The notes below the pieces were generated by a model, which was not told where the DNA came from, did no database searches, and saw only the letters and a program-made list of their open reading frames with translations. This document shows, piece by piece, positions 1 through 10,034 of a stretch of 10,457 bases of DNA (position 1 is the stretch's first letter; each line of letters starts with the position of its first letter). A program made the translations under genes and the position numbers. This DNA comes from Mycobacterium sp. (lineage in GTDB: Bacteria > Actinomycetota > Actinomycetes > Mycobacteriales > Mycobacteriaceae), in assembly GCA_025965815.1 (NCBI GenBank), contig JAOPWF010000556.1:1-10457 (forward strand), in the 5' to 3' direction.

Positions 1-732
1 CCCGACCTCCGGTGTCGGCCCCGCGGGCGTCCACGGTGGACCGAGGTCGCCCGGTACGTCGAACCCGGCGCCGGCCTCGGCGGCCAGCCCGTCCGCCGCG
101 GCGTTGTACGACGCGTCGACCGAGGCCATCGTCGTACGCATCGCGGTGAGCCAGTCCGAGCGAATGTCGTTGTCGACGAAGGGTTTCACTTCCTGGTCGA
201 TCAGCTCACTGGCCGCCACCCGGTCCCCCACGCCGGTGGACACCGTCTGTGCGGCGGACAGCCAGGTCGACCGCTCGACGTGGCGACGGTCGTCGATCGC
301 CAGCACGGCGGCGACCTTGCCGTCGACCATCTGCCACAGGTTGTCCCGCAGCGCCGCGAGGGTGTCGGCGGCGTTGCGCACCGCCGCGGCCGCGCCCTCC
401 GACGAGTCGCGATGGCGCCGGATGAACTCCCGTGACGCGTCGGCGGCGGCGCCCAACCACGCCGCGTCGAGCCCGACAAGCTGCTGGTCCTGGAGGCGCA
501 GCGCGTCGTCGGTCGCGGTGACTACCGCGTCAAGGGCTGCGATGTCGGCGTCCAGGGCGCGCAGGTCGAGCCCGTCCTCGCTGCCGTACCAGTCGCGGAT
601 CTGTGCCGCGTGCGACGTCAGGTCCGGATTCTTATAGCCGAGCAGGTGGCAGGCCCAGACGTAGCTCTGGGTGTTGTCCACGGCCGGACGCCCCTCCGCC
701 AGCCGCGCCGCGACATCGAACTTCTCGGCCAC
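1..732 (-). CDS. Rv3439c-like WxG-domain protein, N-terminal part (runs off window)
   Basis: The frame is open from a GTG at 732 to the window edge, giving 244 codons; the C-terminus is missing. An in-frame TGA at 738-736 (the stop of the upstream gene) makes GTG732 the earliest start, four bases after that gene. The N-terminus (EKFDVAARLAEGRPAVDNTQ) resembles M. tuberculosis Rv3439c, an Ala/Pro-rich protein of unknown function. Residues ~60-145 are Ala-rich helices around a W-x-G turn (W92-L-G94), as in WXG100, PPE and Esp secretion substrates. From ~228 the sequence becomes Pro/Gly-rich (DLGPPWTPAGPTPEVG), so a low-complexity C-terminal region probably follows. No signal peptide or membrane helix is visible. 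Coupling to the EspC-like gene suggests a co-secreted pair like EspC/EspA; that role is inference. The coding frame is secure and the function is not. Confidence 0.8.
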   Translation of the reverse strand, partial: MAEKFDVAARLAEGRPAVDNTQSYVWACHLLGYKNPDLTSHAAQIRDWYGSEDGLDLRALDADIAALDAVVTATDDALRLQDQQLVGLDAAWLGAAADASREFIRRHRDSSEGAAAAVRNAADTLAALRDNLWQMVDGKVAAVLAIDDRRHVERSTWLSAAQTVSTGVGDRVAASELIDQEVKPFVDNDIRSDWLTAMRTTMASVDASYNAAADGLAAEAGAGFDVPGDLGPPWTPAGPTPEVG

Positions 733-735
733 CGG

Positions 736-1041
736 TCATCCGATCCGGTGAGCGGCGCGTGCGTCGGCGTCGGAGAACCGGTCGGCTCCCGCGCGCAGTT
801 CGGCGGCGATCTCCGTGGCCGCTCTTGACCACTGCGACAGTCGGCCGACCACGACGTCGACGGCATTGCGAACCGCGTCACCGCCAGCCGTGTGCATGCG
901 TCCGCCTGATGCACCGTCGAATGCGAGCCGCGCCAGGTGGTTTCGCACGGCGTTGTCGATGATTGCGGCAGCGGTGTCGAATTGGCGCGCAGCGGCGAGC
1001 ACCGCCGCCACATCGACACGGGCGACGTCTGGTTCTCCCAT
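736..1041 (-). CDS. EspC/DUF2580-like small helical protein (Rv3440c-like)
   Basis: This 101-residue, almost wholly helical protein starts at ATG1041 (MGEPDVARVDVAAVLAAARQ). It resembles M. tuberculosis Rv3440c and the EspC-type 'T7SS target' family, which are helical-hairpin proteins of about 100 residues. Helix 1 spans ~8-38, a Gly-rich turn follows (FDGASGGR, 41-48), and helix 2 spans ~53-85. Where EspC-family proteins carry the C-terminal YxxxD/E secretion signal, this one has F89-S-D-A-D93, a Phe-for-Tyr variant. There is no signal peptide or transmembrane segment. No Shine-Dalgarno sequence precedes the ATG; instead a SigM-like promoter ends 10 nt upstream, so the mRNA is probably leaderless. 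The stop lies four bases before the next gene, forming a two-gene unit. Secretion by ESX-4 is inferred, not shown. Confidence 0.82.
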   Translation of the reverse strand: MGEPDVARVDVAAVLAAARQFDTAAAIIDNAVRNHLARLAFDGASGGRMHTAGGDAVRNAVDVVVGRLSQWSRAATEIAAELRAGADRFSDADARAAHRIG

Positions 1042-1050
1042 ACTGGCTAC

Positions 1051-1076
1051 GACGCGACGAAACCCGATCGGGTTCC
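1051..1076 (-). promoter_or_regulatory. SigM-like ECF promoter for the Rv3440c-like gene
   Basis: On the minus strand, GGAAC (1076-1072), 17 bases, then CGTCG (1054-1050) match the mycobacterial SigM consensus as I recall it (GGAAC-N16-18-CGTCR). A start site about 7-8 nt after CGTC would fall at 1044-1043, two or three bases before the ATG at 1041. This agrees with the lack of a ribosome-binding site. A 14-bp perfect palindrome (1061-1074) occupies the spacer and runs into the -35 element. Confidence 0.6.
1061..1074. repeat. 14-bp perfect palindrome inside the SigM-like promoter
   Basis: AACCCGATCGGGTT reads identically on both strands. It covers most of the -35/-10 spacer and the last three bases of the GGAAC element of the promoter for the Rv3440c-like gene. 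Its position would suit a repressor operator. It also lies 24 bases past the glmM stop and could form a short hairpin there. Neither role is demonstrated. Confidence 0.45.
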
Positions 1077-1097
1077 AGTGGTTTCAGGCTGGTGTTT

Positions 1098-2471
1098 TCA
1101 GCGCTGGTTGCTGACCGATTCGGCAACCCGCACGGCGAGCTGCCGAGCGGTGTCCTCGTCGGCGGCCTCCACCATGACACGGACCATCTGCTCGGTCCCG
1201 GAGGGCCGCAACAGGATTCGTCCGGTGTCGCCGAGTTCGGCTTCGGCCTCCCGCACAGCGGTACGCACCGACGGTGCTTCGGCGACGGTGGCCTTGTCGG
1301 TGACTTCGACGTTGATGAGTACCTGCGGCAGGGTGTGCATGGCCGACGCCAAGGTCGCGAGCGGCGTCTGGGTCTGCGCCATCCTCGACATCAGCCGCAG
1401 GCCGGTCACGATGCCGTCGCCGGTGGTGCCCAGTGCTGGCATCACGATGTGGCCGGACTGCTCGCCGCCGAGCGTGTACTCACCGGCCCGCAGTTCGTCC
1501 AGCACGTACCGGTCGCCGACGCCGGTAGTGCGCACTTCGATGCCCGCCGACCGCATGGCCAGGTGCAGGCCGAGGTTGCTCATCACGGTCGCCACCAGGG
1601 TGTTCGAGGCGAGCTCGTCAGCCTCCTGCATCGCCAGCGCGAGCACCACCATGATGGCGTCACCGTCGACCACCTCGCCGTCGGCGCCGATGGCCAGGCA
1701 CCGGTCCGCATCGCCGTCGTGAGCGAGTCCGAGGTCGGCGCTGTGGCGGAGCACCGCAGCCCGTAGCGGCTCCAGGTGGGTCGAGCCGCAGCCATCGTTG
1801 ATGTTCAGCCCGTTGGGTTCGGCGTTGATGGCGATGACGTTCGCGCCGGCGGCCCGGTAGGCGCGCGGCCCAGCGGTCGACGCTGCGCCGTGCGCGCAGT
1901 CGACGACGACCGTCAGGCCGTCGAGCCGGGTGGTGAGCGCCTTGCCGACATGTCGCAGGTAGCGGTCCGGCGCGTCTTCGGCGTCGACGACGCGGCCGAT
2001 CCCGGCGCCGACCGGGCGGTTACCCGGCCCGGAGGTGACGAGTTCCTCGATGCGGTCTTCGGTGGGGTCGTCGAGCTTGTGGCCGCCGGGTCCGAAGATC
2101 TTGATGCCGTTATCGGGCATCGGGTTGTGCGACGCCGAGATCATCACGCCGAAGTCGGCGTCGTATGCGCTGGTCAGATAGGCCACGGCCGGGGTCGGCA
2201 AGATCCCGACCCGCAGCGCGTCGACGCCTTCGCTGGTCAGCCCGGCGATCACCGCGGCTTCGAGCATCTCGCCGCTGGCCCGCGGATCACGGCCCACCAC
2301 GGCGACACGGCGGCGGGCGTGACCGAAGTCAATTCCCCGGTCGCCTCGCTCCAGCCCGCCGGATCCACCGAGCCGCCGGGCTGCCGCCGATCCCAGCGCT
2401 AACGCCAGCTCAGCGGTCAGGTCCCGGTTGGCGATCCCACGGACGCCGTCGGTGCCGAACAGTCGACCCAT
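1098..2471 (-). CDS. glmM: Phosphoglucosamine mutase GlmM
   Basis: GlmM converts glucosamine-6-phosphate to glucosamine-1-phosphate in the cytoplasm, a step toward UDP-N-acetylglucosamine for peptidoglycan and the arabinogalactan linker. The 457-residue protein starts [12 protein letters not shown]. All four signatures are present: the active-site phosphoserine loop ISASHNP (111-117, catalytic S114), the metal-binding loop DGDADR (252-257), the sugar-binding loop GEQSGH (336-341) and the phosphate-binding loop RPSGTE (422-427). Two oddities stand out. A linker of about 13 extra residues (around 40-53) lies in domain 1 compared with the M. tuberculosis protein as I recall it. Gln428 follows PSGTE where Pro is usual. 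ATG2471 is chosen because it begins the conserved N-terminus and has GAGAGG 9 nt upstream; an extension to 2564 has neither. It lies 140 bp downstream of rpsI, in the same direction. Confidence 0.96.
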
Positions 2472-2611
2472 GCGCACAAACCTCTCACAGTTGGCGTCCG
2501 ATGACCCAGGCGACGAGGTAATCGTCCGTTCCGCCACCGAACCGGTACCGGAACGAGACCGCAAGCACCCCGCCTGATCAGCGCGTGTAGTACGCCCTGA
2601 CCAGTCGCAGA
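2472..2611 (-). other. rpsI-glmM intergenic region with a 7-bp stem-loop
   Basis: This 140-bp gap has no supportable ORF. An inverted repeat CGTTCCG (2527-2533) / CGGAACG (2549-2555) encloses a 15-nt loop and could form a modest hairpin in the rplM-rpsI-glmM transcript. It has no T-tract, so it may be a processing or attenuation site. A 9-bp direct repeat GATCAGCGC occurs at 2576-2584 and 2610-2618, the second copy overlapping the rpsI stop. I see no convincing separate glmM promoter. Confidence 0.4.
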
Positions 2612-3079
2612 TCAGCGCTTCGAGTACTGCGGAGCCTTGCGCGCCTTCTTCAGGCCGTACTTCTTGCGCTCCACGGCCCGCGGATCGCGGGTGAGGAAGC
2701 CGGCCTTCTTCAGGACCGGACGGTCATCGGGCGACACCAGGATCAGGGCACGCGCGATGGCCAGGCGCAACGCGCCTGCCTGCCCGGACGGACCCCCGCC
2801 ATCGAGGTGGGCGAAGATGTCGAAGCTGTCCACGCGGTCCACGAGCACCAGCGGGGCCTTGATGATCTGCTGGTGCACCTTGTTCGGGAAATAAGCTTCC
2901 AGGCTGCGGCCGTCCAGCTCGAACTTGCCGGTGCCGGGCACCAGGCGCACCCGCACCACGGCCTCCTTGCGGCGGCCGACGGTCTGGATGGGGCGGTCGA
3001 GGACGACGGGCTCGCGCGGCGCGGCGGCCTCGCCGGCCGGGGCGCTGTCGACGGCCACGGCTTCGGTGGTCTCGGTCAC
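2612..3079 (-). CDS. rpsI: 30S ribosomal protein S9 (uS9)
   Basis: Ribosomal protein S9 belongs to the small-subunit head, and its basic C-terminal tail reaches the P-site tRNA. The 155-residue protein has the usual actinobacterial acidic/Ala-rich N-terminal extension (1-28). The conserved core follows: [14 protein letters not shown] (33-46), the Gly-rich [19 protein letters not shown] (94-112) and the basic tail [16 protein letters not shown] ending in the universal SKR. It starts with GTG at 3079 in a GTGA overlap with the rplM stop (3078-3076), and AGGTGA lies about 5 nt upstream, so translation is probably coupled to rplM. It is a housekeeping gene with nothing unusual. Confidence 0.97.
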
Positions 3080-3519
3080 TGGGTCACCTGCTTGATCTCG
3101 AACGGAATCGGCTGCTGGGCGGTGTGCGGATGCTCCGGCCCGACGTAGACCCGCAGCTTCTTCTGCATCTGCCTGCTGAGCTTGTTGTGCGGCAACATGC
3201 CGACGATCGCCTTCTCGACCACCCGGTCGGCGTGCTTCTGCAGTTCGTCACCGAGTGAACGCGCCCGCAGACCGCCGGGGAAACCCGAGTGGCGGTAAGC
3301 GAACTTGTTCTGCAGCTTGTCGCCGCTGATGGCGACCTTGTCTGCATTGATGACGATGACGAAGTCGCCACCGTCGACGTTGGGCGTGAATGTCGGCTTG
3401 TGCTTGCCGCGAAGCAGCTTGGCTGCTTCCACGGCGAGCCGGCCGAGCACCACGTCGGTGGCGTCGATGACGTACCACGAATGTGTGGTGTCACCCGCCT
3501 TCGGCGTGTACGTAGGCAC
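3076..3519 (-). CDS. rplM: 50S ribosomal protein L13 (uL13)
   Basis: L13 is an early-assembling large-subunit protein that binds 23S rRNA. At 147 residues it has the normal mycobacterial length. The family landmarks are [15 protein letters not shown] (15-29), [20 protein letters not shown] (35-54), [11 protein letters not shown] (58-68), [10 protein letters not shown] (75-84) and [11 protein letters not shown] (107-117). The start is GTG3519 ([11 protein letters not shown] follows), with GAGAAGG about 8 nt upstream. The frame stays open to 3660 but has no good start or conserved residues there. The gene leads the rplM-rpsI-glmM unit behind a SigA-like promoter and a ~140-nt leader that can fold. 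Confidence 0.97.
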
Positions 3520-3659
3520 AGCGCTTACCTTCTCTTCTCTCGGGTTTGTTCCCGGTGTGACCCGGGTGCCGGTCCAGCGTGGGCGGTGCGGTGTCCTCGG
3601 CGACCAACAGTGACCCGAGACCCGGCTGACATCGGGCGAGCCCGACGTACCGTACGCCA
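3520..3659 (-). promoter_or_regulatory. Structured 5' leader of rplM
   Basis: About 140 nt separate the predicted transcription start from GTG3519. On the minus strand TCTCGGGT (3620-3613) can pair perfectly with ACCCGAGA (3545-3538), which lies just before the Shine-Dalgarno purines. Nested inside, CCCGG and CCGGG flank a short loop (about 3570-3555). Such a fold could occlude or expose the ribosome-binding site. L13 represses its own operon through leader RNA in E. coli. Whether this actinobacterial leader does the same is inference. Confidence 0.4.
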
Positions 3660-3666
3660 ACGAAGC

Positions 3667-3696
3667 AGCTTACCGGTGGGTGTCCTCGCAGGTCAA
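3667..3696 (-). promoter_or_regulatory. SigA-like promoter for rplM-rpsI-glmM
   Basis: On the minus strand TTGACC (3696-3691), an 18-bp spacer and TAAGCT (3672-3667) form a mycobacterial housekeeping promoter of the TTGACN / TANNNT type. The start site would be near 3660, about 140 nt before rplM. It sits downstream of the hairpin that closes the ESX-4 operon, so the ribosomal genes have their own promoter. Confidence 0.6.
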
Positions 3697-3821
3697 AACG
3701 CCTCAAGTGGTCGAGAGTGCGGTCCGGGCGGCGAGCGTGCGTCCGGGGCGGCAATTGCCTGAATCCAAGCCTCCATTCTGCGCCCTACCCGCACACTCAG
3801 CGCCGACGACCCGGGACATGA

Positions 3822-3861
3822 CTGTGCGGTCCCGCTAGCCTCCCCCGACGGGACCGCACAG
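3822..3861 (-). terminator. Perfect 13-bp hairpin after esxT, likely intrinsic terminator
   Basis: The arms CTGTGCGGTCCCG (3822-3834) and CGGGACCGCACAG (3849-3861) are perfect inverted repeats around a 14-nt loop. The hairpin begins 18 nt after the esxT stop codon. No T-tract follows, as in the I-shaped terminators proposed for mycobacteria. It divides the ESX-4 genes from rplM-rpsI-glmM. A third 9-bp copy of one arm lies at 3717-3725. Confidence 0.65.
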
Positions 3862-3879
3862 AGTCTGGTGATGCGCGGG

Positions 3880-4176
3880 CTAACGCCCCCACGCGCTCGC
3901 GGCGCTGCGATCGGTGGCGGCGACATCCTCCGCACCGTCGCGCACAGCGTTGCCGAGGCTGAAAAGAATCTCGTTGAGCGACGCCGCGGCCTGGTCCCAC
4001 TTGGTCTGCTCGCCGCGGTAGGCCTCGGCGGCCTCGCGCGTCCAGATCGCCTGCAGCGGGGTGATCTGGGCCTTCAGCTCGTCGAGCGCGGCATTGAGCC
4101 GGGCCGAAGTGGTGTGTATCTCCTGGCGGACGGTGTACTCGATCTCCTCGAAGTTGTACGACAGCACGTGATCCAT
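3880..4176 (-). CDS. esxT: ESX-4 WXG100-family protein EsxT
   Basis: EsxT is one half of the ESX-4 substrate heterodimer (with EsxU), exported across the inner membrane by the EccC4 machinery. The 98-residue protein forms a helical hairpin. Helix 1 covers ~9-42, the turn carries W45-T-R47 where most family members have W-x-G, and helix 2 covers ~48-80. The N-terminus (LSYNFEEIEYTVRQEIHTT) and the turn (PLQAIWTREAA) match M. tuberculosis EsxT as I recall it, so the WTR turn is probably an EsxT family trait. The C-terminus has no YxxxD/E signal. ATG4176 has GGAG 9 nt upstream. It lies 33 bp after esxU and is the last gene before the hairpin. Confidence 0.93.
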   Translation of the reverse strand: MDHVLSYNFEEIEYTVRQEIHTTSARLNAALDELKAQITPLQAIWTREAAEAYRGEQTKWDQAAASLNEILFSLGNAVRDGAEDVAATDRSAASAWGR

Positions 4177-4209: not shown

Positions 4210-4536
4210 TTACAGATGGGTTCCGACGGCACCGATGTGGTGCGAGTGGCTGTCACCGGCCTCCCGCAGCGACCGCTCGTTGACCCGGATGGTTTCGGCG
4301 ATCCCTTGCAGGGCCGTGTAGAGCTTCAGCGACTCGGCATTCCAGCGGTCCACGACGTCCTTGAACCTCGCCGCCGCGACACCGCCCCAGACCGACGGCG
4401 GGACGCTGCTCATTCGGCCGATGAACGACTGCAGCATCGCGCGGATCTCCTCATTGCGGCTGTCGGTCTTGGACGAGACGAGCGCCATCAGGCCGAAGTC
4501 GGTGTTCAGCGCGCCGCCCCCCGCGGGTGTGGTCAT
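4210..4536 (-). CDS. esxU: ESX-4 WXG100-family protein EsxU
   Basis: EsxU is the partner of EsxT; the EsxU-EsxT heterodimer is the pair encoded at ESX-4 loci. The 108-residue protein has a flexible Gly-rich N-terminus, helix 1 (~25-43), the turn SVPPSVWGG with the canonical motif W50-G-G52, and helix 2 (~54-92). The block [16 protein letters not shown] is typical of EsxU. There is no Tyr in the C-terminal tail, so a standard YxxxD/E export signal is absent, and the His-rich end ([13 protein letters not shown]) is not a known signal. ATG4536 has AAAGGA about 6 nt upstream. The 92-bp gap before it holds a SigM-like promoter, so esxU-esxT may be transcribed separately from eccC4. Confidence 0.93.
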
Positions 4537-4581
4537 GTCGGTCCTTTCGTTCGGTCATCGATCCGTGCATTCATCAGGTTG

Positions 4582-4607
4582 GACCATGTTGAGCCGCAAT
4601 CGGTTCC
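4582..4607 (-). promoter_or_regulatory. Weaker SigM-like promoter before esxU-esxT
   Basis: On the minus strand GGAAC (4607-4603), 17 bases and GGTC (4585-4582) copy the architecture of the other two sites, with one mismatch to CGTC. The extended -35 GGAACCG is identical to that of the eccC4 promoter. The start site would be near 4575, leaving a ~39-nt leader that contains the esxU ribosome-binding site. From memory, SigM of M. tuberculosis activates esxT and esxU. The -10 mismatch keeps confidence moderate. Confidence 0.45.
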
Positions 4608-4628: not shown

Positions 4629-5918
4629 TCAGGAGACGGCGTGCGCCGACTCGACCGCTCGGTCACAGACGTACGCCACCGCGTGCTCGCGGCCCGGTGG
4701 GCTCTGGCAACCGATGCTGATCCGCACGGAGCCGTCGACCAGCACCGCCCAGTAGATGCTGTGGCCCGCGCGAATCTCCCGGTAGGTCACCGCCGGCCGG
4801 TCAGCCCTGCGATCCATGGGATTGAAGTCGACGAATACGCCCTGCGGTTGTTCGTCGACCGCACGCTTGAGCGTGGCGGCGACCTGGTCTTGTGTCAGTT
4901 GGCCCGGTAGCCGGGACTGGGTGACGTGTAGGCCGAAGTCCGCCTCCGCTGGCGGCGTCACCTGCACTCGCGCCGAGCCTGGCCCGGAAGTGATGCGCTG
5001 CACCAGCCACTGAGCCGGGACCTTCACCGCAACGTGGCCTTCAACCAGCAGCGTCATCGGAAGATCGGAGACCGGCGGGCGGTGGTCGCCGGGTCGGACG
5101 ATAACGACAGCCCCGAGGGCAGCCGCCGATACCGACACCCCCGCCAGCACGGCAACCGAAGGACGCCAAAGCCGCGCGGCCCACGACTCTCGGCGATCGC
5201 TGAGTTCAGTCGGCACTGGCCGCGGTTTGGCCTGCAGCGCCACCGCTGACGTGAGCACGCTGTTGCCGTCCGGGATCGATACGGCAGTCACCCCATTCGC
5301 TCGCAGCCGGTCGGCAATCAACGCGCTCAACGTGTCCGCGCCGGCAATCCCTGGCGGCGCGTCCACCATGATCGCAGCGGTTTCGCCTCGCCGCACGAGA
5401 TCACGGCGCATGCGCCCAGCAGTGCGGGCAACCCCGTCCGCGACAGAATCGACTGCCGTGGAGCGCGGTTCGGCGTGGACGGGCGGGTAGTCCTGGACGG
5501 ATGCTGTCGACGGCACGCAAGTGACGGCCACCAGCTGCGCGGCAACCTCCGCAATGATCAGCGGCCGACGCGGCTCGTTGCTTTGCCCCTGCGCCAGTGC
5601 GAGCGACCGCCGCCGCACCACCACCTCGGCCGCGACTGAGCGCGCGGCATCCCGCACCAGGTCGATCCGCCGCGCCATCCACCACGATGGAAACACCAAC
5701 GTCACCGTCTCGGCGGTATCGCCGACCAGCGACCGCAGGATTACACACCACAGCTCCCTCACCCCGACGGGGACTTCGTCAATCAGCGCGGTCTCATCGT
5801 CGATGCAGTCGATTGCCGCAGCGGTCAATTGGGGGTCGCCGGTCACCGGTGCATCGCCGGCGCCAACCCGCACAGCGCGGACTTCGCCGGGGCCCACCTC
5901 GACAACCACTCCGTTCAT
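4629..5918 (-). CDS. Type VII secretion-associated protein, Rv3446c family
   Basis: This 429-residue protein is the conserved ESX-4 accessory with no established biochemical role. A soluble domain (1-245) precedes one membrane helix (~253-275, SVAVLAGVSVSAAALGAVVI) and a C-terminal domain (285-429) typical of Rv3446c-family proteins, with two Cys (404, 418) that could pair outside the membrane. The basic stretch RRESWAARLWRP before the helix suggests the N-terminal domain is cytoplasmic. That domain has an order of motifs reminiscent of Hsp70/actin-fold ATPases (VVVEVGPGEVRAVRVG near 4; VTLVFPSWWMARR near 72; a final VLTSAVALQA near 221), but the phosphate-binding glycines are missing. ATG5918 overlaps the eccC4 stop in ATGA, which indicates translational coupling to the motor. 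The family call is firm and the Hsp70-like reading is inference. Confidence 0.88.
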   Translation of the reverse strand: MNGVVVEVGPGEVRAVRVGAGDAPVTGDPQLTAAAIDCIDDETALIDEVPVGVRELWCVILRSLVGDTAETVTLVFPSWWMARRIDLVRDAARSVAAEVVVRRRSLALAQGQSNEPRRPLIIAEVAAQLVAVTCVPSTASVQDYPPVHAEPRSTAVDSVADGVARTAGRMRRDLVRRGETAAIMVDAPPGIAGADTLSALIADRLRANGVTAVSIPDGNSVLTSAVALQAKPRPVPTELSDRRESWAARLWRPSVAVLAGVSVSAAALGAVVIVRPGDHRPPVSDLPMTLLVEGHVAVKVPAQWLVQRITSGPGSARVQVTPPAEADFGLHVTQSRLPGQLTQDQVAATLKRAVDEQPQGVFVDFNPMDRRADRPAVTYREIRAGHSIYWAVLVDGSVRISIGCQSPPGREHAVAYVCDRAVESAHAVS

Positions 5919-8900
5919 TGGGGCGCGGTCCAGGCGACCTGTATCAACTGGTCCGGGTTCGAGCGGGTGATCAATGTCCCGCGTCCGGGTGGCAGCGCAG
6001 CGGACCGGACCGAGCCGAGCAGGATGCCCTCCTCCGGGTTGGCGCTCATGATCAGACCCATGGAACCGAGGTCGCGGAGCCGCGCCAACACCGGGTCGAA
6101 CATCGCCCGCGCGGCGCCTCCGGAACGCCGTGCCACGATCAGATGCAGCCCGAGATCCTTGGCGTGCGGAAGGAACTCGACCATCGCCGTCAACGGGTTG
6201 CCGGTGGCTGTGGCCACCAGGTCGTAATCATCGATGACGACGTAGATTTCGGGACCCGACCACCAGGACCGCGCACGCAACTGCTGCTGGGTGACGTCGT
6301 TGCCGGGCATTCGGTCCCGCAAACGATCAAGGAGCGCCGGCATCTGCGAGGCCAACGCGTCGGCGGATATCGCGTAGCCGGTGAGGTGACCTGACTCAAC
6401 CACACCGAGCAGCGTGCGCCGGCAGTCGACGACCATCAGCTGCGCCTCGTGGGCCGAGTTGGTCCGAATGATCTGCCGGCAGAGCATGCGCAACGCCGCC
6501 GTCTTCCCGCATTCGACATCCCCGAGAATCACGAGGTGCGCCTGCTCGGCGAAGTCCAAAGCAACTGGCCGCAAGTCGCGTTCGCCAAGGCCGAGCAGTA
6601 GCCGCGTTGCCGACTGAGGCTCGGCGGAGCGGCTCATCACATCACGGTCGTCGACATGTGACGGCAGCAGACGCACCGGTGGGGCGGTCTGCCCGTCGAA
6701 CCGAGCGCGCAAAAACTGTGCCTTCGCGGCGATCGCATCACCGATGCCCGTACTCGTTGACTTTCCGTCGAAGCGGGGCAATGCGATAACCATGTCGCGG
6801 CCGTCGCGGGTGATCCCCCGGCCCGGTGGAACATCGGCCAGTCGGCGTGCCCGCTTCCGGTCGATTTCCGAGTCCGACGGGTCGCCGAGTCGCAATTCGA
6901 TACGGGTACCGATCTGATCCTTCAGCCCCGGCCGTATCTCGGCCCAACGTGATGCGGCCACGACGACATGCAGTCCGAATGAGAGGCCCTGCGCGGCAAG
7001 GGCCGTGATCGGCGCCTCGAGGTTTTCGAACTCCTGTCGGACGCTTCCCCAGCCGTCGATAACCAGGAAGACGTCACCGAACGGGTCGTCGGTTGCGCTC
7101 GGGTCACCGGCCGCCCGTCGCTGCCGAAAGTCCGCAAGGGAGTCAATCCCGTGTCGGCGGAACCGCGCCTCGCGGGTCCGAACGACCGATTCCAGTTCGG
7201 CAATGGTTCGCCGTACCAAATCCGGGTCTGACCTGCCGGCCACCGCGCCCACATGGGGCAGCGAGCGCAGCGACGACAGCGAGCCGCCACCGAAGTCCAG
7301 ACAGTAGAACTGCACCTGTCCTGGACGATGGGTGGCCGCCAGTCCCAGCGTCAGGGTGCGCAGCGCCATCGACTTGCCCGATCCCGGAGCACCGACAATC
7401 GCCACGTTGCCGCCCGCCCCGGACAACTCGGCGAGCAGCACGTCGCGGCGCTGCTCGAATGGACGGTCCACCAGTCCAATCGGCACCGACAGCGTGCCGG
7501 CCACCTGGTACTCGAGTACGCGCCGCGGAATCAGCGCGTCCAGTGTCGGCGATTCGGCCAGCGGGGGAAGCCACACCGAGTGCGCCTTGCCACCGCGGCC
7601 CTGCAGGCGATCCAGCACCGTCTCCAGGACAGTGCGCGCGGTGCCCGTGGACGGGCCGATTCGGGACTCGTCGCCGGTGGGCCGGGTGAGGGGGCCCGCG
7701 GCCGCCGCGGTGAAAACCAGTGGCGTCGTGGAAGACGCCATCGGCGCACCGTCGTCGGAGCGCCGGCGGGTGACGCACGGTCCGGAGACGAACGAGGTCT
7801 GGAAGCGGGTCAAGTCGGCGGATCCGTTCCGCAGATACGCGGCACCCGGCGTGCTCGGCAGATGGTATGCGTCGGGTACACCGATGGCGGCTCGGGACTC
7901 GCTGGCCGCGAACGTCTTCAGACACACGCGATAAGACAGATGGGTCTCCAGACCGCGCAGCCTGCCCTCATCGAGTCGCTGACTGGCCAGCAACAGGTGT
8001 ATTCCGAGCGATCTGCCCAGTCGGCCGATCGCGACGAACAACTCGGCGAAGTCGGGATGCTGGCTCAGTAGCTCAGAGAACTCGTCGATCACTATCAGCA
8101 GGGCTGCTAGGGGAGCCAGCGCGGTGCCTGCCTGACGGGCACGCTCATAGTCAGCGACGTTGGCGTAATTGCCTGCCGCCCTGAGAAGTTCCTGGCGTCG
8201 GTGCATCTCACCCGCCAGCGCATCCTTCATCCGGGCCACCAGGTGGGCCTCGTCCGACAAGTTCGTGATGACCGCCGCGACGTGTGCTGCCCGCTCGAGA
8301 CCCAGAAAGGTTGCACCGCCTTTGAAGTCGACGAGGATAAGGTTCAAGACATCCGGCGCATGCCGGGTGATCATCCCCAACGTCAGGGTGCGCAGGAACT
8401 CGGACTTCCCGGAGCCCGTCGCGCCGACGCACAACCCGTGCGGGCCCATACCGCCGAGCGCGGCCTCCTTTATGTCCAACTCGACCGCTGTGCCATGCTC
8501 GGTGACGCCGATGGGAACCCGCAGCCGATTGCGGGCGCCGCGATCACGCCATGCGGCCGCCGGGTCGATGACCGCCGGATCCCCGAGGTTCAGCAGGTCC
8601 TGCCAACGGGCCGCTCCGCGGGACAGGTCCACGTCGTCACCCTCACCCGATGCGGGGCGGAAGGGTGCCATCCGCCGGGCGCAGACGAGTGCCTGCACTG
8701 GCGTCATCGTGTCCGGCCGAGCGAAGACTTCCTCAATCGCTCCCCTGGCGGCCAGCCGGTCAGCGGAGATCGTCATGCGCAGCCCGTGTCTTGCTGCCAG
8801 CTCATCACAGCCGATTCCGATCTCCAACACCGTCACTCCGGCGATCCCGTCGTGTGTGCAGCACCGTTCGGAGCCGGCGACCTGACCCCCGTCGACGATC

Positions 8901-9877
8901 ATCACGACATGTGGTGATTCGTCCACTTCGGGCGGCGGCGGCCACGTGAATGCCCCCCGATCGGCGATGAGGGGGTCCAGCGCGGCTTCGGCATCGGAGA
9001 CGCTGGAGTACAACATCCGGGCCGACCCCACGGCGTCGACAGCATCCGGATGTTGATTGTGCGGCAACCACTTCAGCCAGTCCCAATCCCGGTTTCGGCC
9101 CACCGCCGCGACGACCTTCAGCCGTTGCGGGCTGTGCAACACCGCTAACTGGCAGACCATTGCCCGCGCCAGTCCCCGAGCCGCGGCGGCATCGCCGTCG
9201 ATCGTGATAGCCGCAAAGCCGTGCACGGCGAGCGCGATCGGCAGATCCGGAACGAATGAGTGCGTGCGGATGAGGCGGCGCAACGCCATCGACGTCACCG
9301 GGTCCAACTCCTCCACCGGCCCCAAAGCGGGTGCGACCAGTTTGGTGGACAGCCGCTGACGCCCACAACCGACACGCACGTGACCGAAGTCGGAGTCGCC
9401 ACCGCGGCGTTCCCACATCCGCGTAGTGCCCACCAACGTCCACAGCGACCCCGGTTCCGGATGACTCCATCCCAACGAGACCGCCTGGGCGGCTGCGGTG
9501 TCGGCAACAGCGTGACTCAACGATTCCAGATAGCGCAGGTAATCTCGCCGGTGCTGGTTGATCTCAGTGGTCCGGCCGCCCGACCTACCGGCGGATGTCA
9601 TGGTGCCCAACACCGACGCGAGCATCATCAGCGGGAAGAGCATGAACATCGGGTTGCGTATCACCGCGGCGCCCGACGTGAAGACGACGACCATCATGCC
9701 CGCCATGGCAACCACCAACGCGATCGGAAGAAGCCTGCCGAGCAGGTTCGCCGGCACCGCCCGCGGGACCTCAGGTGGCGCTTCGACGACGATCTCCCCG
9801 TCGGGTACCCGATCCAGTGGCAGCCGCGGCGGCGAGGTGAAAGGCACTGTCGGCCCACTTCGGTCAGGCTGCGTCAC
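5915..9877 (-). CDS. eccC4: ESX-4 FtsK/SpoIIIE-type motor ATPase EccC4
   Basis: EccC4 recognises ESX-4 substrates and powers their export through the inner-membrane EccBCDE complex. The chain has 1320 residues. Two membrane helices (~49-67 and ~76-93) are followed by the stalk/DUF region and three tandem FtsK-like ATPase domains on one polypeptide. Domain 1 has Walker A GATGSGKS (485-492), Walker B LLIVIDEF (D598-E599) and SQR at 632-634. Domain 2 has GAPGSGKS (829-836), but its Walker B reads VIDGW, with Gly942 for the catalytic Glu. Domain 3 has GDVECGKT (1119-1126) and VIDDYD (D1216-D1217). Only domain 1 therefore looks fully catalytic, which fits EccC proteins generally. The start is GTG9877 with no Shine-Dalgarno sequence, but a SigM-like promoter ends 10 nt upstream, so the message is probably leaderless. 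GTG at codon 11 is a possible alternative. Confidence 0.95.
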   Translation of the reverse strand: MTQPDRSGPTVPFTSPPRLPLDRVPDGEIVVEAPPEVPRAVPANLLGRLLPIALVVAMAGMMVVVFTSGAAVIRNPMFMLFPLMMLASVLGTMTSAGRSGGRTTEINQHRRDYLRYLESLSHAVADTAAAQAVSLGWSHPEPGSLWTLVGTTRMWERRGGDSDFGHVRVGCGRQRLSTKLVAPALGPVEELDPVTSMALRRLIRTHSFVPDLPIALAVHGFAAITIDGDAAAARGLARAMVCQLAVLHSPQRLKVVAAVGRNRDWDWLKWLPHNQHPDAVDAVGSARMLYSSVSDAEAALDPLIADRGAFTWPPPPEVDESPHVVMIVDGGQVAGSERCCTHDGIAGVTVLEIGIGCDELAARHGLRMTISADRLAARGAIEEVFARPDTMTPVQALVCARRMAPFRPASGEGDDVDLSRGAARWQDLLNLGDPAVIDPAAAWRDRGARNRLRVPIGVTEHGTAVELDIKEAALGGMGPHGLCVGATGSGKSEFLRTLTLGMITRHAPDVLNLILVDFKGGATFLGLERAAHVAAVITNLSDEAHLVARMKDALAGEMHRRQELLRAAGNYANVADYERARQAGTALAPLAALLIVIDEFSELLSQHPDFAELFVAIGRLGRSLGIHLLLASQRLDEGRLRGLETHLSYRVCLKTFAASESRAAIGVPDAYHLPSTPGAAYLRNGSADLTRFQTSFVSGPCVTRRRSDDGAPMASSTTPLVFTAAAAGPLTRPTGDESRIGPSTGTARTVLETVLDRLQGRGGKAHSVWLPPLAESPTLDALIPRRVLEYQVAGTLSVPIGLVDRPFEQRRDVLLAELSGAGGNVAIVGAPGSGKSMALRTLTLGLAATHRPGQVQFYCLDFGGGSLSSLRSLPHVGAVAGRSDPDLVRRTIAELESVVRTREARFRRHGIDSLADFRQRRAAGDPSATDDPFGDVFLVIDGWGSVRQEFENLEAPITALAAQGLSFGLHVVVAASRWAEIRPGLKDQIGTRIELRLGDPSDSEIDRKRARRLADVPPGRGITRDGRDMVIALPRFDGKSTSTGIGDAIAAKAQFLRARFDGQTAPPVRLLPSHVDDRDVMSRSAEPQSATRLLLGLGERDLRPVALDFAEQAHLVILGDVECGKTAALRMLCRQIIRTNSAHEAQLMVVDCRRTLLGVVESGHLTGYAISADALASQMPALLDRLRDRMPGNDVTQQQLRARSWWSGPEIYVVIDDYDLVATATGNPLTAMVEFLPHAKDLGLHLIVARRSGGAARAMFDPVLARLRDLGSMGLIMSANPEEGILLGSVRSAALPPGRGTLITRSNPDQLIQVAWTAPQ

Positions 9878-9879
9878 AT

Positions 9880-10034
9880 CAGATAGGACGTGTCGGATCC
9901 GCGTCCGGTTCCCTCACCGCCGATGAAAATTGCTGCGCAACTGTGCCGCTGCCGCAGGCTACGGTGACAACGCGAGCGCAATGCCAATGGCTCGCGCGGC
10001 CTGGGAGGTCCGCTGTTACCGGGGGGTGGTGCGG
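9880..10034. other. Divergent eccC4/eccD4 intergenic region
   Basis: These ~155 bp separate the divergent genes. The left part holds the SigM-like eccC4 promoter. I find no GGAAC/CGTC pair or clear SigA promoter reading rightward into eccD4. The eccD4 frame is open back to 9927, just after a TGA at 9924-9926, so part of this stretch could code if the start is ATG9981 or ATG9987. GGGAGG (10003-10008) and GGGGGG (10021-10026) are purine runs that could serve as ribosome-binding sites. Confidence 0.5.
9887..9912 (-). promoter_or_regulatory. SigM-like ECF promoter for eccC4
   Basis: On the minus strand GGAAC (9912-9908), a 17-base spacer and CGTC (9890-9887) match the SigM-type consensus; the base after CGTC is C rather than a purine. 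The predicted start site (about 9880-9879) is 2-3 nt before GTG9877, the same geometry as at the Rv3440c-like gene. The spacer contains the palindrome CGGATCCG (9894-9901). This promoter would drive eccC4 and the coupled Rv3446c-type gene. Confidence 0.6.

Follow-up and report, generated by a model that had tools for sequence, protein, structure and literature searches.

The window analysed here, a stretch of 10,457 nucleotides from a Mycobacterium sp. assembly, carries glmM on its minus strand, followed by a gene for a 101-aa protein (736–1041) and then by a longer gene (1–732) that runs out of the window. The distance from this pair to the ESX-4 genes (1041 to 3880) is ∼2.8 kb and contains glmM, rpsI and rplM, names that were assigned from translations and with no family search; the preliminary description had put about 2.8 kb of housekeeping genes here, and its figure stands. 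The features to which the text refers are as follows.

1..732, minus strand, Rv3439c-like partner gene, first 244 aa within the window
736..1041, minus strand, Rv3440c-like gene, 101 aa, EspC family PF10824 (41.5 bits, curated cut-off 23.5)
1048..1076, minus strand, putative SigM-type promoter of the EspC-like pair, 29-bp element GGAACC-N16-CGTC-GTA, assigned from motif and conservation
3880..4176, minus strand, esxT-like WXG100 gene (Pfam WXG100, 46.3 bits)
4210..4536, minus strand, esxU-like WXG100 gene (Pfam WXG100, 46.4 bits)
4579..4607, minus strand, putative promoter of the same type before esxU, GGAACC-N16-GGTC-CAA, with a 45-nt leader
4629..5918, minus strand, Rv3446c-like type VII secretion-associated gene of the ESX-4 cluster
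5915..9877, minus strand, eccC4 with a GTG start at 9877, EccCa and EccCb models far above cut-off
9884..9912, minus strand, putative promoter of the same type before eccC4, GGAACC-N16-CGTC-CTA, with 9 nt between CGTC and GTG

The element before the pair consists of a −35 box GGAACC (1076–1071), a 16-nt spacer and a −10 box CGTC (1054–1051) followed by GTA. A GGAAC-N17-CGTC motif had been described directly before the Rv3440c-like gene, and a pattern scan places it at 1051–1076 on the minus strand. The first base of the ATG had been counted as the tenth after CGTC, which agrees with an ATG beginning at 1041 and 9 nt in between, and the same promoter type with the same spacer length, claimed for ESX-4, is found at eccC4 (9887–9912, minus strand), where the GTG is again the tenth base after CGTC. 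Throughout the genus the start codon lies 8, 9 or 10 nt past CGTC (6, 79 and 51 of 136 loci, respectively; 136/136 within ∼10 nt), and this spacing suggests that the transcript of the pair is leaderless in this genus.

Altogether 146 of the 148 genomes of the genus, among them that of the window, have a match for the 101-aa protein. The preliminary description had made its reading depend on conservation of the two boxes among related species, and both are kept, with their spacing, in 138 of 145 alignable loci of the genus, window included, and in 29 of 30 loci from other genera. The genus count derives from 147 loci examined, the two without an alignable gene being that of G107, whose genome measures 3.3 Mb, and a weak additional match in G131; 136 loci were positive for GGAACC-N16-CGTC in the first stretch scanned, and L080 and L166 in a wider stretch. 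These 136 profiled loci have identical spacing, an invariant sixth-base C in the −35 box and an invariant A in CGTCNNA, around a spacer that varies freely. The seven deviating loci read AGTC (L055, L064), CGAC (L101, L104), GGTC (L105) and CATC (L183), the last of them, L185, being a broken gene in a 3.3-Mb genome. No Rv3440c-like gene was detectable in G090 and G093, two genomes of the genus with an intact SigM. In a second, named collection, which overlaps the first in species, the element is present in 71 of 72 loci (70 CGTC and one AGTC, two of the CGTC sites having a spacer one base longer), and the stretch for the 72nd locus ends inside the element.

A profile search with the protein gave matches at E ≤ 1e-6 in 124 of 301 family genomes, representing 14 of 30 genera. 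Outside the genus there are 92 genomes with a match, and the sample from other genera consists of the 30 that scored best, which cover six genera; the motif occurs there within 300 bp upstream, and the gene is followed by a frame of 337–497 aa, which looks spurious at L330. The promoter lies ∼30–115 nt ahead of the aligned part of the protein in these genera. Leaderlessness thus seems to be particular to the genus Mycobacterium, and the promoter predates it.

Two explanations of the element that do not involve a sigma factor shared with ESX-4 have to be considered. The string may be a chance match in a GC-rich genome, and in its loose form the pattern is indeed frequent, with 320 matches across the assembly (234 with the pattern reversed) and three in the window against 0.68 expected, which is only a mild enrichment (three or more in 9 of 200 shuffles); the third of these sites lies inside eccC4 (8395–8420, plus strand) and is without the sixth-base C. 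The strict CGTC form, GGAACC-N16-CGTC-NWA (sixth base C, A third after CGTC), tells signal from chance because it returned 77 matches against 10 for the reversed control in 18 genomes (∼97 Mb), at 1–9 sites per genome. In the window's assembly (5.66 Mb, 81% complete) it is found at three sites, before the pair, before eccC4 and before an EspC-like gene on contig C146, against none in the control, and two of the three are inside the window. The NWA form is narrower than the conserved element, the pair promoter reading CGTCGGA in three of the 18 genomes and being uncounted there. With both boxes and their spacing near-invariant across a freely varying spacer, a chance match is a negligible prospect. 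Alternatively, the conservation could be accounted for by a palindrome, AACCCGATCGGGTT, acting as glmM terminator or as an operator. This repeat overlaps the −35 box and spacer of the pair promoter and is perfect over 14 bp in this window (1061–1074); however, inverted repeats in the spacers of 131 distinct promoters are at shuffle level (23.7% against 23.6%). A spacer hairpin as glmM terminator was rejected on this comparison, and the palindrome, which finds no support as a general trait of these promoters, is very improbable as the source of the conservation.

Within ESX-4, only 18 of the 41 loci that could be tested, window included, have the eccC4 promoter, a count that omits a 19th match 225 bp upstream. 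The pair promoter is better conserved than this promoter of the secretion ATPase itself. Before esxU, GGAACC and a −10-like box are found in 58 of 58 loci, window included, at a spacing of 16 bases (17 in two), and the −10 box reads CGTC in 37, GGTC in 15, AGTC in four, CGAC in one and AGAC in one; at L087 the motif is present when a wider stretch is scanned. An upstream CGTC motif of its own was found for esxT in none of 62 loci. The GGTC form has two sites in the window's assembly (esxU and the gene after sigM) against one in the control, and the strict GGTC form is not enriched as a class (across the 18 genomes, 14 matches compared with 23 in the reversed control), so that the GGTC sites at esxU and after sigM count by position only.

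Sorted by position and downstream gene, the 77 strict sites comprise 15 before the pair, 15 before ESX-4 genes (two of which are esxU-like, by eye), nine before a second EspC-like gene, four after sigM, seven before small or helix-rich genes of one genome, G085, and 27 others, several of which lie inside long reading frames and are probably due to chance. The second EspC-like gene starts 8 or 9 nt from the motif at its nine sites. In the single relative that was scanned its product scores 29.2 bits, above the Pfam cut-off, and the first 90 residues of the copy from the window's own genome score 16.2 bits, below cut-off. Downstream of this gene, eight of the nine genomes encode a protein of 355–372 aa with a shared C-terminal LDCSGLTQWAY region, and the one such protein scanned has an NlpC/P60 match (68.3 bits). 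The seven first genes of G085 offer weak type VII support, the best WXG100 score being 22.6 bits, below cut-off, and four of the seven giving no type VII profile match; their downstream partners include one clear NlpC/P60 protein (62.4 bits) and one weak WXG100 match.

In the window's own genome, sigM is directly followed by a gene that begins 9 nt past GGTC; its product has 299 aa and a single evident hydrophobic stretch, and from position and shape this is probably the anti-sigma factor. The CGTC motif follows sigM in four of the 18 genomes, where a thioredoxin-reductase-like frame, recognised by eye, comes after that gene, an arrangement that matches the sigM–anti-sigma–trxB order of M. tuberculosis. 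The one protein encoded after sigM that was scanned has no Pfam match. In 30 sigM loci chosen by SigM score, a both-strand scan for NGTC with A third found no spaced site right after sigM in 29, the exception being the window's own genome, and two further spacer-16 sites in L192 and L195. A search of 660 bp in the 30 loci for GGAAC-N16-18-SGTC also gave none, in a single orientation and hence as no clean negative. With only the window's own genome among the 30 loci and CGTC in four of 18, this feedback site is no general feature.

SigM is the best candidate reader of the element. Its orthologue in the window's own genome (G000, contig C814) scores 306.7 bits against a cut-off of 190, and SigM is above cut-off in 143 of 148 genus genomes and in 48 of 50 family genomes tested (30/30 with the pair, from other genera, and 18/20 without a detected pair). 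It is therefore nearly universal, and its presence or absence was set aside as uninformative for proof of the link. The best evidence is that promoter and SigM change together in G050 and G077, the genomes with the lowest-scoring intact SigM (222.9 and 201.2 bits, respectively). The pair promoters of both read CGAC, esxU of G077 has AGAC, and both genomes share a DxDG-repeat gene ∼8 kb from sigM that begins 8 nt past a CGAC motif. The CGAC class is only mildly above control in G050 and G077 (12 matches against 5 reversed) and, not being clearly enriched, its sites count by position only. Compared with 59 relatives, the SigM of G050 and G077 has 15 differences at sites that are at least 90% conserved, five of them within WLYRIVVNACLDRLRR, residues 76–86: position 76 is F in G050 and G077, H in the relatives and Y in the window's own protein, and the other changes are V80S, A82K, L84V/I and R86Q/L (own-fragment numbering). 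This stretch is presumably the helix of region 2.4, through which ECF sigma factors recognise the −10 box. The two genomes probably represent one evolutionary event.

The Rv3440c-like protein resembles the EspC family not only in its Pfam match but also in its length of ∼100 aa and its predicted helical hairpin (AlphaFold2 pLDDT 83.6, pTM 0.69). Most orthologues (130 of 136) have the secretion motif YxxxD/E close to the C-terminus; in the window copy the sequence is FSDAD, with F for Y. With the predicted hairpin as query, Foldseek gave no match at E 0.001 among the 50 listed; the first 35 of these are WXG100/Esx or PE-PPE-EspG proteins (best E 0.18, TM 0.79). The pair differs from the EspC family in sitting after glmM with a ∼450-aa partner, and not in an espACD-type locus, a type that is linked to ESX-1. 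The part of the Rv3439c-like partner held by the window has no Pfam match above cut-off and none to NlpC/P60. Of the 86 orthologous loci that were readable, 85 have a WxG motif within residues 60–130 and 76 have a conserved C-terminal TPCEIAADELPQ-type tail by a CxIA test; 14 of the 100 loci surveyed were unreadable to the stop and some loci come from the same genome. In L002–L030 and L390–L461 a long Pro/Ala-rich linker precedes the cysteine-containing TPCEIAADELPQ-type tail.

To our knowledge, few ESX-4 substrates are known. ESX-4 is placed first in the evolutionary order of mycobacterial type VII systems, and SigM and ESX-4 have been linked to cell contact and gene transfer (PMC9514802). 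SigM overexpression raises esxU, esxT, esxF and esxE (PMC8593097, citing Raman 2006), and a review reports that in M. smegmatis the ESX-4 apparatus is under direct SigM control, together with a cell wall hydrolase and a nuclease (PMC9514802, citing Clark 2018). A link between SigM and ESX-4 was thus already known, and the pair, which has the promoter type seen here at esxU and eccC4, would be a new member of the Mycobacterium SigM regulon (ESX-4, esxU–esxT, esxE–esxF), possibly already contained in published array data; a glmM-linked EspC-like pair is not named as a target in the portions of PMC10117145 and PMC8593097 available to us. No SigM link of Rv3439c/Rv3440c was found in the literature searched, a scope that lay outside the primary SigM studies (Raman 2006, Agarwal 2007, Clark 2018), and no mention of SigM was found in the available main text of PMC8022548 and PMC6448022. 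The SigM-controlled hydrolase and nuclease of M. smegmatis may be compared with the present finding that the same motif precedes EspC-like genes followed by NlpC/P60-type proteins; the part of the pair's partner inside the window gave no NlpC/P60 match.

Taken on sequence evidence, it is highly probable that the 29-bp element is a SigM-read promoter of an operon of the EspC-like gene and its partner, transcribed with the ESX-4 genes. We infer the following course of events. Once freed from its anti-sigma factor, SigM with RNA polymerase would read the element, and the pair operon would be transcribed along with eccC4, esxU–esxT and the second EspC-like gene; in the window's own genome they would be joined by the gene that follows sigM, whose product is probably the anti-sigma factor, closing a feedback. 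Within the genus, transcription would begin no more than a few bases from the ATG, and the transcript would be translated without a ribosome-binding site. The products probably form a heterodimeric type VII secretion pair working with ESX-4; we infer both heterodimer formation and export, and a secreted heterodimer is plausible.

The reader of the element could instead be a different ECF sigma factor whose −35 box is of the GGAAC type, such as SigE, SigH or SigL, with SigM secondary. GGAAC-like −35 boxes are common to ECF sigma factors, 23 places in the window's own genome match the SigM model at E ≤ 0.001, and G096, a fragmented assembly, retains the pair and its motif with SigM not detected. 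However, SigE and SigH command broad stress regulons, for which 1–9 strict sites per genome are few, and the motif varies with SigM in G050 and G077, lies directly after sigM in the four genomes with CGTC and, as GGTC, in the window's own, and is found on ESX-4, whose genes are 2–4-fold lower in a sigM mutant (PMC10117145). Another principal reader is therefore improbable, and co-regulation of the pair with ESX-4 by SigM, as the preliminary description had proposed, is well supported at the sequence level by conservation of the element, by esxU in 58 of 58 loci and by co-variation with SigM. Co-regulation does not by itself make the products substrates or helpers of ESX-4, as had further been proposed, because the SigM-regulated EsxE and EsxF serve CpnT, which is reported to be an ESX-5 substrate needing three systems (PMC8092274). 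By the same example, the pair could be SigM-regulated and yet act outside ESX-4, its products being exported by another ESX system or retained in the cell; against this, the pair and ESX-4 lie within 3 kb in the window, esxU is beside the pair in 58 loci, window included, and the pair is retained in other genera of the family, so we judge a role outside ESX-4 to be unlikely, if a good deal less so than a different sigma factor.

A broader and more tentative proposal, which we put forward as a possibility and would sooner doubt than assert, is that SigM is a single-purpose secretion sigma factor. Its ancestral regulon would be ESX-4 together with EspC-like/partner effector pairs and would be older than the divergence of the family's genera, the factor's own anti-sigma gene having joined it in some lineages. 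The glmM-linked pair, in which a hairpin carrier is accompanied by a partner with a nearly invariant cysteine-containing tail, would then be the most conserved target and the core ESX-4 effector pair. As the promoter has few copies per genome and its spacing is kept across genera, it provides a practical tool for naming candidate ESX-4 partners in the family, among which the EspC-like pair ranks first by promoter.

Some individual loci deserve mention. On contig C146 of the window's own assembly (L274), the second EspC-like gene has the strict motif 9 nt before its ATG, and the downstream frame, from ∼336, is like the relatives' NlpC/P60-type partner only in its first residues; this frame is disrupted or misassembled. 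In G069 (L087, L221) the match to SigM is split into two pieces that lie in separate frames, the pair promoter is intact and the first protein of the pair is without the YxxxD/E tyrosine. The DxDG-repeat gene of G050 and G077 (G050:C1:2487755 and G077:C1:1732224; L288 and L283, respectively) begins MDYC, and a similar gene in G103 (L275) carries the motif as CGTC, the gene downstream of it being Esx-like (WXG100, 33.2 bits).
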